Below are positions 1,224 through 16,765 of a DNA stretch of 64,000 nt, piece after piece (position 1 is the first letter of the stretch; each line of letters begins with the position of its first letter). The stretch spans positions 1 through 64,000 of the forward strand of contig JABHCC010000010.1 of the NCBI GenBank assembly GCA_018669475.1. Reading direction: 5' to 3'. A program made the translations under genes and the position numbers. Below the pieces are notes generated by a model, which saw nothing but the letters and a program-made list of their open reading frames with translations, had not been told where the DNA came from and did not search any database. This DNA comes from Bacteroidota bacterium. Its GTDB lineage: Bacteria; Bacteroidota; Bacteroidia; Bacteroidales; UBA12481.

Positions 1224-2435
1224 TCATCCCAACAATTGATCAGTAAACATCCTCTTCACCTCATCATCAAAAGATCCTAGATAGCTCTCCGTTGTGCTCA
1301 AATTAGAATGCCCTAGTTGCTCTGAGATAAACTCCATTGATGCCCCAGATCGCTTTAAAATGGTTACATGTGAATGACGTGCTACTGATGTTGTCACCTT
1401 CTTTGTAATACCCACCTTTTCGGCAATAATCTTCATCCATTTATTTGTCACGTGGATGAATTGCCCGTAAGATTCGATTTGCACCTCCAATGTCGTATTT
1501 GGTTTTAAAATCGGAAACACAAACTCCTTAGGTTCCGCCGAACCACTCCCCCACTTTTCAATTACTTTTTGAGCATATTCATGAATTGGAACATGGACTG
1601 GCTTTTGCTGTGTTCTGCTTGTTAATTTAGTTTTTGCACGGATAAAAGTGATGAAGCCATCTTGCAAGTTCTCATTTCTCAAATAGGCAATATCCTTAAA
1701 ATTCATCCCACCACAGAGGTAACTAAAGAACCAAAAATCTTTTGCCCGGTCTTCGAATGTTTTCGGCTTTGGCTCATATAAAAACAATTTATTGATCTCC
1801 TCCATTGTAAGAGACTTCTTAATATTCTTTGAAGCGGGAATGATATACTTCCTCCGTCCAAATGGGTAGTGATCCCTAACTGCAAGGCCTTCATCAATGG
1901 CGATGTTATAAATGGATCTAAGGGATCGCATATGAATTCCAACGGTTGTCATAGATCTTCCTCGCTCTTCCATCCACGCTTCGTATTCGCGCAAGAATCC
2001 TGGATTCAAATCAGCTAACTCGGCATCACTTCTGAACTTTTTAAACGAGTTGCGAATGGATTGATAAGACAAGGCTGTCTTCACTCTTCTTTCTTTTTTC
2101 ATCTGGTCGATGTACAAAGTGAACCGATCATACAGTGACCGACTTCCTCGGGCTGGATCTCCTTGGTATTTTTTTTCAAAATCATAGAAGGAAAAACGGT
2201 CCATTTCTGAGGTGATTTCTTCGGCCCAAACCAGGGAACGAAGCAATTCCATCTGTAGATTTTTATTCTTCCCAGCTGCTGCCGGATCCATGATTCGGTC
2301 AAATTTTTCCTCCGTCATGTACTTTCCCAGTGGGTAGTACTTCTGTCGACCCTTGTGTGTAACTCTCAGTTTTACAGGGTACTTACTGTCATTTGTAATC
2401 CTTCTTTTATCACAAATTATTGCTATTTTTGCCAT
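1224..2435 (-). CDS. Tyrosine recombinase / integrase of the Bacteroidota type
   Basis: A site-specific recombinase of about 403 residues. The N-terminus (MAKIAIICDKRR) is the arm-DNA-binding domain typical of Bacteroidota integrases, followed by a SAM-like core-binding domain (around SYQSIRNSFKKF) and a C-terminal catalytic domain with ARHSHVT, LGHSNLSTTESY and the nucleophile tyrosine. The first catalytic arginine position reads GMNFKDI, so arginine I appears to be replaced, as in IntDOT-like enzymes. I chose the ATG at 2435 because it begins the conserved MAKI segment; an upstream in-frame start at 2471 would add 12 atypical residues. The gene points away from the tRNA-fragment site at 2691 and has repeated TTTGCATA sites upstream, the usual integrase-attachment arrangement. 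Confidence 0.9.
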   Translation of the reverse strand: MAKIAIICDKRRITNDSKYPVKLRVTHKGRQKYYPLGKYMTEEKFDRIMDPAAAGKNKNLQMELLRSLVWAEEITSEMDRFSFYDFEKKYQGDPARGSRSLYDRFTLYIDQMKKERRVKTALSYQSIRNSFKKFRSDAELADLNPGFLREYEAWMEERGRSMTTVGIHMRSLRSIYNIAIDEGLAVRDHYPFGRRKYIIPASKNIKKSLTMEEINKLFLYEPKPKTFEDRAKDFWFFSYLCGGMNFKDIAYLRNENLQDGFITFIRAKTKLTSRTQQKPVHVPIHEYAQKVIEKWGSGSAEPKEFVFPILKPNTTLEVQIESYGQFIHVTNKWMKIIAEKVGITKKVTTSVARHSHVTILKRSGASMEFISEQLGHSNLSTTESYLGSFDDEVKRMFTDQLLG

Positions 2436-2447
2436 AAATAGTCCTTT

Positions 2448-2682
2448 TTTGCATATATGTATGCAAATCAAATATACGGATTAATTTGCATACATTGCAA
2501 TAGTCATAGTGGTTCTAGAGGATTTCATTTGCATATAATTTGCATATTTTTGTCTGAGTAAGCAAGATTTAATGGAATAAAACAAGACGAAATTGGCAAA
2601 ATTATCAACAGCTTAACCCATTGAACCACTGCCTAATACAGGCAAATAAAACCAAATTAAATTAAATAATAATGTATGCAAA
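2448..2682. promoter_or_regulatory. Candidate recombinase arm-type binding sites
   Basis: Six copies of TTTGCATA or its complement lie at about 2448-2455, 2460-2468, 2485-2493, 2528-2535, 2539-2546 and 2674-2682, in both orientations, between the recombinase start and the tRNA-fragment core. Their placement suits integrase arm-type sites and possibly autoregulation. Two further copies, at 4843-4851 and 5069-5078, follow the second tRNA fragment. The role is inferred from position and repetition only. Confidence 0.5.
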
Positions 2683-2690
2683 AAAGGACT

Positions 2691-2730
2691 GTTAATCAGA
2701 GGGTCCCTGGTTCGAGTCCAGGATGAAGCG
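2691..2730 (+). repeat. tRNA-Asn-like 3' fragment, copy 1 (attachment-site core)
   Basis: The sequence starts in a CT-GTT-AA anticodon loop, continues with TCAGA and GGGTC, and forms an intact T-arm (CCTGG, TTCGAGT, CCAGG). Seven acceptor bases ATGAAGC and a G discriminator follow. The anticodon GTT and G73 suggest tRNA-Asn. The upstream AAGGA does not pair with TCAGA, so the 5' half is missing. This is what remains when a tyrosine recombinase crosses over in the anticodon loop of a tRNA gene. Confidence 0.75.
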
Positions 2731-4509: not shown

Positions 4510-4703
4510 ATATATTTAGGTTTTAGTTTTTTGAATTTAATACAAAGACGATATAATATATCAAGTGCTACACTTACACTCATGATATCATAAGCGTTGC
4601 GTCTTAGTTAAAAGATTTTCAATTGATTATATTCAGTGGACACTAGTGCTATCGAATAATGAAATTTTCTATGGGCACAGTGAAGTATCTAGGTTGTCGT
4701 ATT

Positions 4704-4792
4704 ATTAATCAGAGGATCCCTGGTTCGAGCTTAGGGAGAAGCGAAGCGAACGATCTCATGAGGTCGAAGACCGGATAGTCTAGGATGAAGCG
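4704..4792 (+). repeat. tRNA-Asn-like 3' fragment, copy 2, with 49-bp T-arm insertion
   Basis: TTAATCAGAGGATCCCTGGTT matches copy 1 up to TTCGAG. The next 49 bases (4730-4778) are an insertion, after which TCTAGGATGAAGCG resumes the tRNA 3' end. The insertion contains CGATCTCATGAGGTCG, which can pair over 7 bp, and AAGCGAAGCGAA. It destroys the T-arm, so this is not a working tRNA end. The upstream half of the tRNA is missing. Confidence 0.7.
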
Positions 4793-4804
4793 CACAGAGA
4801 ATCA

Positions 4805-4840
4805 AACCGTTACGAAGGTCAAACTTGGTAGCGGTTTTTT
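4805..4840 (+). terminator. Rho-independent terminator after tRNA fragment 2
   Basis: Stem AACCGTTAC/GTAGCGGTT (4805-4813 with 4828-4836, one G-T pair), then six T. The stem sequence differs from the terminator behind copies 1 and 3. Confidence 0.7.
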
Positions 4841-5179
4841 CATTTGCATACCTCTGAAAAGTCAGCTAAATTGCCAAAATCATTCATTATTCTCTGTGTT
4901 ACAGATTATTGCATAGCGCATGAAGCCCGACCGCAAAACTGCAATAGCCAGGCTTCATTTCAGGCAAAATTTGCTCCTATATCCCTATGAATAAACTCAA
5001 TACTCAATCCGGCCAAGTGCCTGATCAAGCTCATAACGCTTATAGTAAACTGCTCACTTACCTGTTCTGTATGCAAATATGTACCCGGATTTTGTCCAAC
5101 TATGTAGTAGAAATTCCGACTCCTCAGAGCACCTCATGCTGGAAGTTAAAGCAATAATGCTATGTTGTTGATAAAGTTC
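4841..5179. other. Intergenic gap with arm-site matches and a degenerate direct repeat
   Basis: It contains TTTGCATAC at 4843-4851 and GTATGCAAAT at 5069-5078, the same motif as upstream of the recombinase. It also has a repeat at 5110-5160 that is roughly 70 percent identical by eye to 6237-6287. No gene is visible. Confidence 0.4.
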
Positions 5180-6172
5180 TCAATTTCGCTTATTGATAAG
5201 ATTGACCACCACCTTGGTCATTGTTTCCTTTTCTTCTGGTTTGCTCACGGCAATCATTAATGTGATGGCTACCAAGGCATTGTCAGGAATCCGTTTTCGT
5301 CCGTCTTCATCCCTTAAGGCCCCATTTCTTTCAAGAAAATACAAAAATAGAAATGCGGCAATTCGTTTATTCCCATCGGAAAACGAATGATTCTTTGTTA
5401 TGAAATAGAGAAGGTTTGCTGCTTTTTCTTCAATGCTTGGATAAAGTTCCTTGCCTCCAAAAGTTTGATAGATAGTGGCGATTGAGCTCTGAAACGACTG
5501 ATCCTTTTCATGTCCAAACAAATCACTATTCCCATGAGTCTTTTTTGCCATCAGGATTTGGCTTATTGCTTCATCGTATGTTAATTGGTAAGTCTCCTTT
5601 TCAGATGTATCCTGGATTTCAAGTTTCTGATAATCGTATTGATCCAGGATGTCTAAGGCGTAGGCATAATCTGAAATGATTTTGAGTAGGCCTGTGCTCT
5701 CATCTCCCGTAAGGTTTTTGTATTCTAAAACGTTTCCCAGAATTTTTACAGCTTCTTTTAATTGGCTTAACTCTTTGTTCTGGAGGGATAATCTCTTCTT
5801 ATCAATTGCATATCCTTGTATCAAGTACTCTTTTAAGATTCTATTTGCCCATTTCCTGAATTCGGTACCTCGCTTGGAATTGACCCGGTATCCAACAGCA
5901 ATAATAACATCAAGATTGTAATAATTAACTTTTCTGTGAATTTCTCTTGATCCTTCTTGTTGAACTTGTGCAATTTTTGCACAAGTTGATTCTTTCTCTA
6001 ATTCATCTGACCTGTAAATATTAGAAATATGTTTAGTAATGGAGCTTCGATTAGTGTCAAATAATTCCTCGAGCTGATACTGATTTAACCAAACCGTCTC
6101 ATCTTCAAGTTTCACTTGGATTTCAGTTAAGCCATCAACTGAACTAAATATTTCGATCTTACTGTTTTTCAT
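5180..6172 (-). CDS. RhuM-Fic/DOC fusion protein
   Basis: The 330-residue product has an N-terminal RhuM-type domain (about 8-135), with VWLNQYQLEELFDTNRSSIT and the later FRKWANRILKEYLIQGY signature. The C-terminal Fic/DOC domain carries HSFSDGNKR (H262-R270), which fits the HxFx(D/E)GNxR AMP-transfer loop with lysine in the variable position. Fic domains modify hydroxyl side chains with nucleotides or phosphate; RhuM domains are found in toxins and mobile elements. No separate antitoxin gene is visible; the RhuM half may control the Fic half. It is the only gene between tRNA fragments 2 and 3. Confidence 0.9.
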   Translation of the reverse strand: MKNSKIEIFSSVDGLTEIQVKLEDETVWLNQYQLEELFDTNRSSITKHISNIYRSDELEKESTCAKIAQVQQEGSREIHRKVNYYNLDVIIAVGYRVNSKRGTEFRKWANRILKEYLIQGYAIDKKRLSLQNKELSQLKEAVKILGNVLEYKNLTGDESTGLLKIISDYAYALDILDQYDYQKLEIQDTSEKETYQLTYDEAISQILMAKKTHGNSDLFGHEKDQSFQSSIATIYQTFGGKELYPSIEEKAANLLYFITKNHSFSDGNKRIAAFLFLYFLERNGALRDEDGRKRIPDNALVAITLMIAVSKPEEKETMTKVVVNLINKRN

Positions 6173-6236
6173 GATTTTAATTCAACATAAAGATACAGAA
6201 AGTGATAATTATTATTAGTAAAAAGGAGTCATTAGA

Positions 6237-6287
6237 CATTCCGGAGTCTCTGAGCACCTAATGCCGAAAGCTAAAACAATATTAGGA
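6237..6287. repeat. Degenerate direct repeat (D2) upstream of RhuM-Fic
   Basis: ACATTCCGGAGTCTCTGAGC and the following bases resemble 5110-5160 (D1) on the other side of the RhuM-Fic gene and, more weakly, 8228-8262 (D3). All three contain TGAGCA or AGAGCA followed by CCTAAT-like bases. Their origin is unknown; they could be ends of a decayed element. Confidence 0.4.
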
Positions 6288-6503
6288 TTCTGCTGACATA
6301 CAGGTATTTATATCCAGAATACATTGTTCAATAGATTCCGGAAATAACTGTCCTTTTGAATCATATTGTCCACGTCTAATTGGAGACGACCGGAATCGGT
6401 ATTTTCTTGGATGATTTAGCCCCGATAATCTCTACTTTCAGCAAAGAAGAGAACTAGTTGATGACAAAAACACTCATTACGGGCAAGAAGGTGTTTATGA
6501 TTT

Positions 6504-6588
6504 GTAATCAGAGGGTCCCTAGTTCGAACTTAGGGAGCGAAGAGAACGATCTCATGAGGTCGAAGACCAAATAATCCAGGATGAAGCG
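6504..6588 (+). repeat. tRNA-Asn-like 3' fragment, copy 3, with 46-bp T-arm insertion
   Basis: GTAATCAGAGGGTCCCTAGTT begins the copy. A 46-bp insertion (6529-6574) occupies the same T-loop position as in copy 2 and shares CGATCTCATGAGGTCGAAGA with it. TCCAGGATGAAGCG then completes the tRNA 3' end. As in copies 1 and 2 there is no 5' tRNA half. Confidence 0.7.
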
Positions 6589-6600
6589 CACAGAGAATGA

Positions 6601-6634
6601 AACACTTACCTTATAAAACGGGTAAGTGTTTTTT
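6601..6634 (+). terminator. Rho-independent terminator after tRNA fragment 3
   Basis: The stem AACACTTACC/GGTAAGTGTT and T run are identical to 2743-2776. The following GTTGCAAAGTT also resembles the flank of copy 1, so the duplicated block extends beyond the terminator. Confidence 0.85.
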
Positions 6635-13927: not shown

Positions 13928-13993
13928 ATTTAGGCATTATCAAAATCAAACATCAAAAACCCATAACTCATCACATCCACTTCATCACGCATC

Positions 13994-14113
13994 TTAGTTC
14001 TTCAAATAAACTATCCTGACAATCGGATAGTCCTCCACCGATCCAGCTTTATGCAATTCAGCCAACTCTTTACCATGCGGTGTATTCAGCATCCTCTTGC
14101 TAGTTAAAAAGAC
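13994..14113 (-). pseudogene. Orphan C-terminal tail of a 6-bladed propeller gene
   Basis: The minus strand encodes NTPHGKELAELHKAGSVEDY and then PIVRIVYLKN before TAA at 13994-13996. This matches the end of the propeller gene at 15533-16765 (ATPHGKELGELVETSSIEDN, PIVRIVYLKN) in protein and at the DNA level. Only about 39 codons remain and there is no start. It is the 3' scar of a lost paralog. Confidence 0.8.
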
Positions 14114-15506: not shown

Positions 15507-15532
15507 AAAACATCTGTATTATAGCAAACATC

Positions 15533-16765
15533 TTAGTTCTTCAAATAAACTATCCTGACAATCGGATTATCTTCAATAGAACTGGTTTCTACCAATTCAC
15601 CCAGCTCCTTCCCATGCGGTGTAGCCAGCACTTCTTCTTTTTCGAAAAAGCCAGTCTCTTCGAGCTCTTTTAGATCGGTCATTTGATGGATTGAAGTAAG
15701 GGAGCCTTGATCCTGATCGATTTTTGACCAGGGGTAGTTGAAACCATCCAGGTCGTTGTTGAGATCAGCGATATGATCTTTTCTTCCGTATGGTACGTAA
15801 ACATCCGGTAGGGAAAATAGCTCATCTTTCTTTTTGTCATAATATAGCAGTGTAAACTTCTTTTTATACCAAACGGTGAAGGTGAGGTAATTATCGGTTT
15901 CCCAAAAACTATTCAATCGGTAATAATTGTTGATATCGTTTGCGAAAAGAGCATCCTGGGTGATGAGTTTGCCGTGGGTGTTGAAGACCACTCTAGGAAT
16001 CAGGCCCTCATCCAGGGATACCTGAAATAGAGTGTCGTTGGCCTGTTCTCTGATGAATAACTGATCGTTGTATTGATAACTCAGGATCGGAACGCCCGGA
16101 AAAGGCATGTCACGTGCATCAACGCCGTGCCAGGTTCTGGTTATCAATGTGTCGATTTGCTTCAGTTGGTCGGAATAATTTAAAACGAGCGGATAGTTGG
16201 GTCGATTCAACATCTGGACAGTAGTCACGCTTAAGTTTATTTCATCGTTAAGGAAGAAGCCTGAATTCCATTGCAGAAGCGGTTTGCCTTTATTGACAAA
16301 CTCACCCTCGGCTGTAAAGAGATATAATTCGACATAAACCAGATCGGTGAAGGCAATATGCGATCCGGATGGGTTGATCGACCATTGAAACATGCCCATG
16401 TATTCACCCGGGCCTTTCCCTTGTTTGTCGATCTTATAAAGAAATTCTCCTTGCAGATTAAACACGTGGATCACCGGTGGTTGAACTTCCATCACGAATA
16501 CTTTATCACCCCTGACCAGGACACGCCCATGGCCGATCAGGCATTCTGGGCTGGTTTCTAGTTTGACGTAAGAGATGCGATCGGCGATCTCGCTGAGTAC
16601 CATTTTCTTCTGGTTGGCAAAACCCGCTTCGATATCCAGGGTGAGAAACTCAGACGGTTGTTGCGTGGTGCAGGCAGATAGGATAAGGGCGAAGGCGAAG
16701 ACCAGGGCCGCCAGATTAGTGGCCTTACGACATGTGATTTGTATCGTGTATTGTGCCTCTCTCAT
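15533..16765 (-). CDS. 6-bladed beta-propeller lipoprotein 3
   Basis: A 410-residue lipoprotein with LILSAC (C32) after a longer N-terminal tail. It has YVKLETSPECLIG, FNLQGEFLYKID, GKGPGEY and the ending EDNPIVRIVYLKN, closest to paralog 1 at 6839-8086. Its start ATG overlaps the TGA of the upstream gene by 4 bp, so it is coupled to it. The orphan tail at 13994-14113 closely matches this gene's end. Function unknown. Confidence 0.85.
   Translation of the reverse strand: MREAQYTIQITCRKATNLAALVFAFALILSACTTQQPSEFLTLDIEAGFANQKKMVLSEIADRISYVKLETSPECLIGHGRVLVRGDKVFVMEVQPPVIHVFNLQGEFLYKIDKQGKGPGEYMGMFQWSINPSGSHIAFTDLVYVELYLFTAEGEFVNKGKPLLQWNSGFFLNDEINLSVTTVQMLNRPNYPLVLNYSDQLKQIDTLITRTWHGVDARDMPFPGVPILSYQYNDQLFIREQANDTLFQVSLDEGLIPRVVFNTHGKLITQDALFANDINNYYRLNSFWETDNYLTFTVWYKKKFTLLYYDKKKDELFSLPDVYVPYGRKDHIADLNNDLDGFNYPWSKIDQDQGSLTSIHQMTDLKELEETGFFEKEEVLATPHGKELGELVETSSIEDNPIVRIVYLKN

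Follow-up and report, generated by a model that had tools for sequence, protein, structure and literature searches.

RtT-like elements at tRNA genes of Bacteroidales, with half of their cap in the T-loop of two tRNA-Asn remnants

Introduction

What is known of RtT RNA (Rfam RF00391) so far comes mostly from one E. coli tRNA operon, of which it is a by-product, and from relatives in Gammaproteobacteria; the E. coli RtT repeats lie in tandem. According to the available extracts of the literature, rtT, a by-product of tyrT, has been proposed to take part in the stringent response and resembles BIMEs (PMC2965389), a tandem GA motif is reported for RtT (PMC7657543), RtT-family sRNAs occur near Asn- and Lys-tRNA genes in Pasteurellaceae (PMC4986893), RtT is raised in the cold in Thioalkalivibrio (PMC8092127), and RtT is listed for Pectobacterium (PMC4710047). 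Our literature search returned nothing on T-loop insertions in bacterial tRNAs or on RtT outside Gammaproteobacteria.

Here we describe elements of RtT-like build at tRNA genes of Bacteroidales. The starting point was a preliminary description of two tRNA-Asn remnants, in which a palindrome-containing insertion of 46-49 bp was suggested as a possible tiny mobile or attachment-associated element that targets the T-loop. We consider it likely that this insert is not free-standing but forms the right half, from the T-loop-like GTTCGAAC up to GAATAAT, of a larger structured RNA that is a small relative of RtT from E. coli, and that the two copies were stranded by integration.

Results and discussion

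Three tRNA-Asn remnants in the window

The window, which means the whole stretch of 64,000 nucleotides analysed, lies on contig C214 of a genome of 215 contigs and 5.56 Mb (G, C and L numbers denote genomes, contigs and loci). It carries three 3' remnants of tRNA-Asn(GTT), at about 2689-2730, 4703-4792 and 6503-6588, which are called copies 1 to 3. The features are as follows, with the basis of the assignment in brackets.

1224-2471, minus strand: tyrosine recombinase gene (domains Arm-DNA-bind_5, Phage_int_SAM_5, Phage_integrase), beside copy 1
2689-2730, plus strand: copy 1, 3' remnant of tRNA-Asn next to the integrase gene, free of the insert and probably left from an attachment site
4703-4729, plus strand: copy 2, tRNA-Asn remnant from the anticodon loop to the T-loop, ending in TTCGAG (sequence; intact tRNA-Asn of relatives)
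4730-4778, plus strand: copy 2, T-loop insert of 49 bp, right half of the RtT-like cap
4762-4772, plus strand: copy 2, stem B hairpin GGTC-GAA-GACC (stem B test on 24 elements, 0 of 2000 shuffles)
4779-4792, plus strand: copy 2, tRNA-Asn 3' part, T-stem 3' strand and acceptor 3' strand (sequence)
4807-4841, plus strand: terminator-like hairpin and T run, 3' of the copy 2 remnant (sequence)
6503-6528, plus strand: copy 3, tRNA-Asn remnant from the anticodon loop to the T-loop, ending in TTCGAA
6529-6574, plus strand: copy 3, T-loop insert of 46 bp, right half of the RtT-like cap
6558-6568, plus strand: copy 3, stem B hairpin GGTC-GAA-GACC (stem B test)
6575-6588, plus strand: copy 3, tRNA-Asn 3' part (sequence)
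6600-6634, plus strand: terminator-like hairpin at copy 3, common to copy 1 and the tRNA-Asn of relatives

Read directly, copy 2 runs ...CCCTGGTTCGAG, then 49 bp (4730-4778), then TCTAGGATGAAGCG, and copy 3 runs ...CCCTAGTTCGAA, then 46 bp (6529-6574), then TCCAGGATGAAGCG. The insert thus stands between TTCGAG or TTCGAA and TCTAGG or TCCAGG in both, at the same point of the T-loop, and copy 1 is without it, as had been described. Both inserts hold the 20-mer CGATCTCATGAGGTCGAAGA (4751-4770 and 6547-6566). When up to 3 mismatches were allowed, shuffled sequences gave 0.01 matches on average, and two matches were reached in none of 100 shuffles. The palindrome pointed out earlier (CTCATGAG) is present, but it makes up a small part of the element, and the hairpin supported by comparison is the adjoining GGTC-GAA-GACC. 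Nor is the T-stem simply replaced by other pairings, as had been thought: both inserts open with a TTAGGG strand, which is able to pair with the 5' T-stem strand of the tRNA.

ARAGORN found no tRNA in the window, as expected for remnants, an Rfam scan of the window gave no family above its gathering score, and a pattern search for an intact tRNA-Asn in the own assembly found none. Comparison with the intact tRNA-Asn of relatives (L005, L038, L041, L042) places the start of the remnants in the anticodon loop. Their left edge CTGTTAATC is common to remnants in several relatives and is eroded in copies 2 and 3. Folded singly, the two capped copies are not more stable than their shuffles (z -0.65 and -0.56); single-sequence folding is uninformative for both, and the structural evidence for them is taken from relatives. 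At one locus of another genome (G015, L008), an intact tRNA-Asn is followed by two partial copies with a different anticodon arm (CCCGATGTATATCGGG).

Recurrence of the cap in relatives

The core 20-mer occurs at two places only in its own genome and in no further one of the 12 family genomes searched, and REP-type, integron and transposon readings were rejected on this ground. Pattern and covariance searches in genomes of the window's order found the same cap at Asn, Val, Asp-like, Ser, Pro, Arg, Tyr and Cys tRNAs. Its plan is GTTCGAAC, stem A, CTCATGA, stem B and GAATAAT, followed by the tRNA 3' end.

Similar inserts lie in a tRNA-Asn remnant (G004, L036), in a complete tRNA-Val (G009, L045/L133), in a degenerate Val copy (G010), in Val remnants of G006, G001 and the own genome (C33:28045-28080) and, within a record named Chlorobiota M_MetaBat.158 (L088), in a tRNA-Arg 3' copy directly behind an intact tRNA-Arg. 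The last genome falls in the window's order and has the same contig as G613, so that the spread observed is one order plus Gammaproteobacteria. G492 and G613 also share a contig, appear to be one genome and were counted once. A looser pattern (TTCGARC, CTCATGAG, ATARTC) was found at 17 places in 13 of 393 genomes of the order; 15 of these places are in tRNA context, the exceptions being in G833 and G927. Several relatives were retrieved with patterns or models that contain the motif, so that circularity enters in part into their likeness to the window copies, but not into their tRNA context, for which the searches did not ask. Likewise, the pattern that retrieved G613 comprised 15 bases of the core, and part of the similarity of G613 therefore arises by selection, but its tRNA tail and upstream tRNA do not.

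Two covariance models, R1 and R2, were also used, the latter built from the elements of six relatives only. The model search of 39 chosen genomes gave matches at E <=0.1 in 16 of them, at 46 places; the context was examined at 19 of these places and re-examined at 11 of the 19, and weak R1 or R2 matches without cap features (e.g., L127, L128, L248, L256) were dropped. Among 395 genomes of the phylum, R1 matched the own genome and two places without tRNA context, which were taken as chance. The exact full-length pattern was found in none of 316 phylum genomes, no element was among the 12 matches in 148 genomes around the Chlorobiota-named record, a plasmid search gave no match, and a phage search gave two short matches, both confined to the tRNA part. 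A phage origin was rejected, since scans of viral contigs gave no element in tRNA context. A coding origin was rejected, since by length and repetition the alphaproteobacterial matches were judged to be coding-like chance matches.

Two forms of the element

The cap occurs in two forms. In the minihelix form, the unit directly follows an intact tRNA, and its own end is copied from the 3' half of that tRNA; the 5' strand of the unit is complementary to this copied end. In the T-loop form, the right half of the cap interrupts a tRNA copy or remnant at its T-loop; this is the form of the window and the only one found in its genome. Their occurrence by tRNA is listed below.

Minihelix form, tRNA-Ser(GCT): G526 (two in tandem), G599, G867
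Minihelix form, tRNA-Pro(TGG): G867, G890, G829
Minihelix form, tRNA-Arg(TCT): G528, G829
Minihelix form, tRNA-Arg(ACG): G613
Minihelix form, tRNA-Tyr(GTA): G624, G911
Minihelix form, tRNA-Val(GAC): G873
T-loop form, tRNA-Asn: window, G004
T-loop form, tRNA-Val: G009, G006, G010, G001, G000, G568
T-loop form, Asp-like tRNA: G555
T-loop form, tRNA-Arg(CCG): G624
T-loop form, tRNA-Cys: G850
T-loop form, tRNA-Ser: G613:C44

G867 has an additional tandem pair with Ser-like tails, and a tandem pair of G624 follows an unassigned tRNA remnant. When the tails of nine elements were compared with the 3' half of the upstream tRNA, six were identical to it over 11-85 bases, counted from the 3' strand of the T-stem, two carried a small insertion (extra C bases at Ser of G867; one base after 4 nt at Pro of G890), and one had lost the tail (Pro of G829). 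Further cases of tail copying are Arg-TCT at L252, Tyr at L251 and L254, Val at L245 and E. coli Tyr. In four cases of the T-loop form (Val of G568, Arg of G624, Cys of G850, Ser of G613), an intact tRNA of matching kind is found downstream of the capped copy. At about 1501-1601 of L255, a tRNA-Ser copy upstream of an intact tRNA-Ser seemingly holds two more hairpin-like inserts besides the capped T-loop.

Cap-like sequences were also seen away from tRNAs. G850 and G911 gave 16 and 6 model matches, and those examined include dispersed cap-like units outside tRNAs. These units read GAACCGA..GAGCTCATGA..GAATAAT and are present in many copies per genome (L241, L258, L262, L260, L242). The available extract of the rtT report likens rtT to BIME repeats, which are likewise dispersed away from tRNAs (PMC2965389). 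A dispersed intergenic repeat of G492, ATGAACTGAGCGAAGCGATCTCATGAATAAAATGAATAAAATTTTAAACGTATG (L143, L147, L150, L152, L154-L157), has GCGAAGCGATCTCATGA in common with the cap and is apparently often just ahead of a start codon.

Structure and covariation

The proposed stems P1, P2, A and B were scored on six minihelix elements. Paired cells made up 84.6%, compared with 71.5% after shuffling and 25.5-45.5% after sliding, and eight pairs had changed on both sides. The covariation test with 500 shuffles gave no value as high on four of five measures, and 111 of 500 on the fifth. The P1 strand fits the tail of its own unit: the strand ahead of GATGAGAA pairs with its own tail at -16.5 kcal/mol on average and with swapped tails at -10.1 kcal/mol, and a value as low was reached in 4 of 5040 permutations (seven elements, including that of E. 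coli). At L254, by eye, the P1 end GGAT/ATCC reads GGGTT/AACCC, by which pairing is restored.

Stem B has a mean of 3.5 bp over 24 elements, both window copies included, against 1.32 bp in shuffled sequences (0 of 2000 shuffles as high). Stem A, for which only Watson-Crick and G-T pairs were counted, reached its mean in 2 of 2000 shuffles and its number of 3-bp stems in 156 of 2000. This weaker score may be due to tandem G.A pairs, which, by eye, seem to be present in several stem A strands. A hammerhead-like reading of CTCATGA, a stem and GAA was rejected by eye; the hammerhead core motif has a G at the position that is C in the cap.

Relation to RtT RNA

In a permissive scan of ten loci (32.6 kb), the RtT model of Rfam matched both tandem units of L205 over its whole length, with 24.6 and 24.5 bits and E-values of 0.98 and 1.1 (0.011 and 0.012 when 371 bases were searched); L218 and L215 gave 20.3 and 20.0 bits (E 1.1 and 1.3). 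Taken singly, none of these four matches rises above chance in the larger searches; all four agree in strand and register. No element reaches the Rfam gathering score of 45 bits, the best having 24.6, and 14 of 18 short loci, including both window copies, gave no RtT match at E <=2. Since the gathering score is not reached, the element is not filed as a member of RF00391; it is RtT-like in build.

The reverse test is stronger than this forward scan. Model R2 matches the annotated E. coli RtT (L232) with 20.2 bits (E 0.0037 in 356 kb), above all non-elements in these 356 kb; on the 1433 bases of the E. coli RtT locus itself the match has E 1.5e-5, and the next match has 9.2 bits. The E. coli RtT has the same plan, lying behind tRNA-Tyr and reading GGGGAAGGATGAGAA...GGTTCGA...GAGTAATCCTTCCCCCACC. 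Applied to the window, R2, in which copy 3 is not included, matches copy 3 (6515-6583, 17.1 bits, E 0.035) and does not match copy 2. The window copies resemble the Arg minihelix of G613 and the T-loop forms of G004 and G009, with none of 2000 shuffles as good. In a direct comparison, their inserts and E. coli RtT show no significant likeness (227 and 259 of 2000 shuffles as good). The link of the window copies to RtT runs via these intermediates.

The resemblance to the RtT RNA of E. coli tyrT extends to build and setting. The minihelix form lies behind a tRNA (Ser, Pro, Arg, Tyr or Val), its upstream strand forms P1 with the copied tRNA 3' half, eight of the nine elements compared end in such a copy (two with a small insertion), and the order is GGATGAGAA, P2, TTCGA and GARTAATCC. 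The elements can be in tandem (L205, L257), as in E. coli. The tandem GA reported for RtT in the extract available (PMC7657543) may be present here as well, to judge by eye from several stem A strands. The window copies, which do not lie downstream of a tRNA, retain only TTCGA and the end motif of this order. They are incomplete elements with the right cap half only, since the 5' half of the cap is absent. Unlike RtT RNA, the elements described here belong to another phylum and sit at eight tRNA identities, their cap is shorter and has CTCATGA and stem B, they score under the Rfam gathering line, and one form lies within tRNA copies. The RtT-family sRNAs of Pasteurellaceae also involve tRNAs other than Tyr; they are reported upstream of tRNA genes, and the available part of that report describes no T-loop form (PMC4986893). 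What appears to be new is the T-loop form, together with the range of eight tRNA identities.

That a second phylum has the same plan, with stems that covary, at tRNAs of eight identities and also inside the T-loop of tRNA copies, suggests a general tRNA-gene element, and what was supposed to be an oddity of E. coli may be widespread on tRNA genes. The relatives supply many natural variants for working out the role of RtT. They also give warning that hairpin inserts in tRNA remnants need not be random decay.

Integration setting and origin of the T-loop form

The tyrosine recombinase gene lies beside copy 1, a beta-lactamase-like gene lies between copies 1 and 2, and a RhuM/Fic protein gene (5180-6172) lies between copies 2 and 3. 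Copies 1-3 are tRNA 3' parts whose left edge is sharp, though degenerate in copies 2 and 3; an integrase gene lies next to copy 1. They start in the anticodon loop like the remnants of relatives, and in these respects they resemble what tyrosine-recombinase integration leaves behind. Unlike such remnants in general, copies 2 and 3 hold an RtT-like cap in the T-loop. The row of three would represent traces of repeated integration into tRNA-Asn, in which cutting in the anticodon loop stranded two capped 3' ends.

That the insert is instead a tiny DNA mobile element, independent of RtT RNA and placed in T-loops by site-specific recombination, as the preliminary description supposed in part, is improbable in our view. 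The exact T-loop position across tRNAs and genomes, the patchy spread (13 of 393 genomes) and the nearby tyrosine recombinase would agree with it, and to this extent the earlier idea holds: the same junction recurs in many tRNAs, and the remnants look attachment-associated. However, the complete form is larger and includes a tRNA 3'-half copy and a complementary upstream strand, its internal stems covary, no consistently linked gene and no clean target duplication were seen, and the cuts of the integrase remnants fall in the anticodon loop instead of the T-loop. That the element moves with its own recombinase or transposase is unsupported, and the core is largely what had been named as the outcome against that idea, part of a longer, RtT-like element found elsewhere. 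We give equally little credit to degenerate tRNA pseudogenes with unrelated hairpins, whose likeness to RtT would be convergence on the tRNA minihelix fold. The scores under the gathering line and the non-significant direct comparison of the window with E. coli are what this reading would predict, but GATGAGAA, TTCGA, GARTAATCC and stem P2 come in the same order in both groups, the match is obtained in both search directions, and the stems covary.

It is less probable still that the cap interrupts the T-loop of working tRNA genes in the manner of an intron and is removed from the precursor. Complete or near-complete capped tRNAs do exist (Val at L133 and L197, Arg at L259, Cys at L253). However, at L197, L259, L253 and L255 the same tRNA is present in intact form close downstream, so that the capped copy is likely dispensable, and the same cap occurs without any tRNA 5' part. 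To our knowledge, known bacterial tRNA introns are group I introns in the anticodon arm, and the insert is of 46-49 nt and in the T-loop.

On the reading that we prefer, an RtT-like RNA element, the complete form is a tRNA minihelix. Its first strand mimics the acceptor and T-stem 5' strands and is followed by a cap, which measures about 60-80 nt and consists of GATGAGAAC..GTTCGAAC, stem A (in which tandem G.A pairs seem frequent), CTCATGA, stem B and GAATAAT, and by a true copy of the 3' half of the adjacent tRNA, directly behind which the unit lies. If the unit is transcribed, RNase P and the 3' maturation enzymes may release the RNA, as the minihelix suggests, and it may then have a function. 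Because tRNA and cap have GGTTCGAA in common, the T-loop form may have come about when the two recombined or slipped at this sequence within a tandem tRNA duplication; the product would consist of the tRNA 5' part, the right half of the cap and the tRNA 3' end, which is the form of the window. The reverse order is equally possible, with the T-loop form first and the other arms lost later. A wider and rather doubtful extension is that RtT-like units are phylum-spanning hitch-hikers on tRNAs, in which the cap could move between tRNA genes via the near-universal T-loop GGTTCGAA, taking the 3' half of its host, so that each copy would be a minihelix for tRNA maturation enzymes.

Other repeats were noted in the window. 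An imperfect inverted repeat of 25 bp (88%; 2434-2458 and 2672-2696) joins the start region of the integrase gene and the left edge of copy 1, and several TTTGCATA motifs lie between 2450 and 2550; these may be arm or core sites of the recombinase. A direct repeat of 102 nt, 80% identical, is located at 13990-14091 and 15529-15630.
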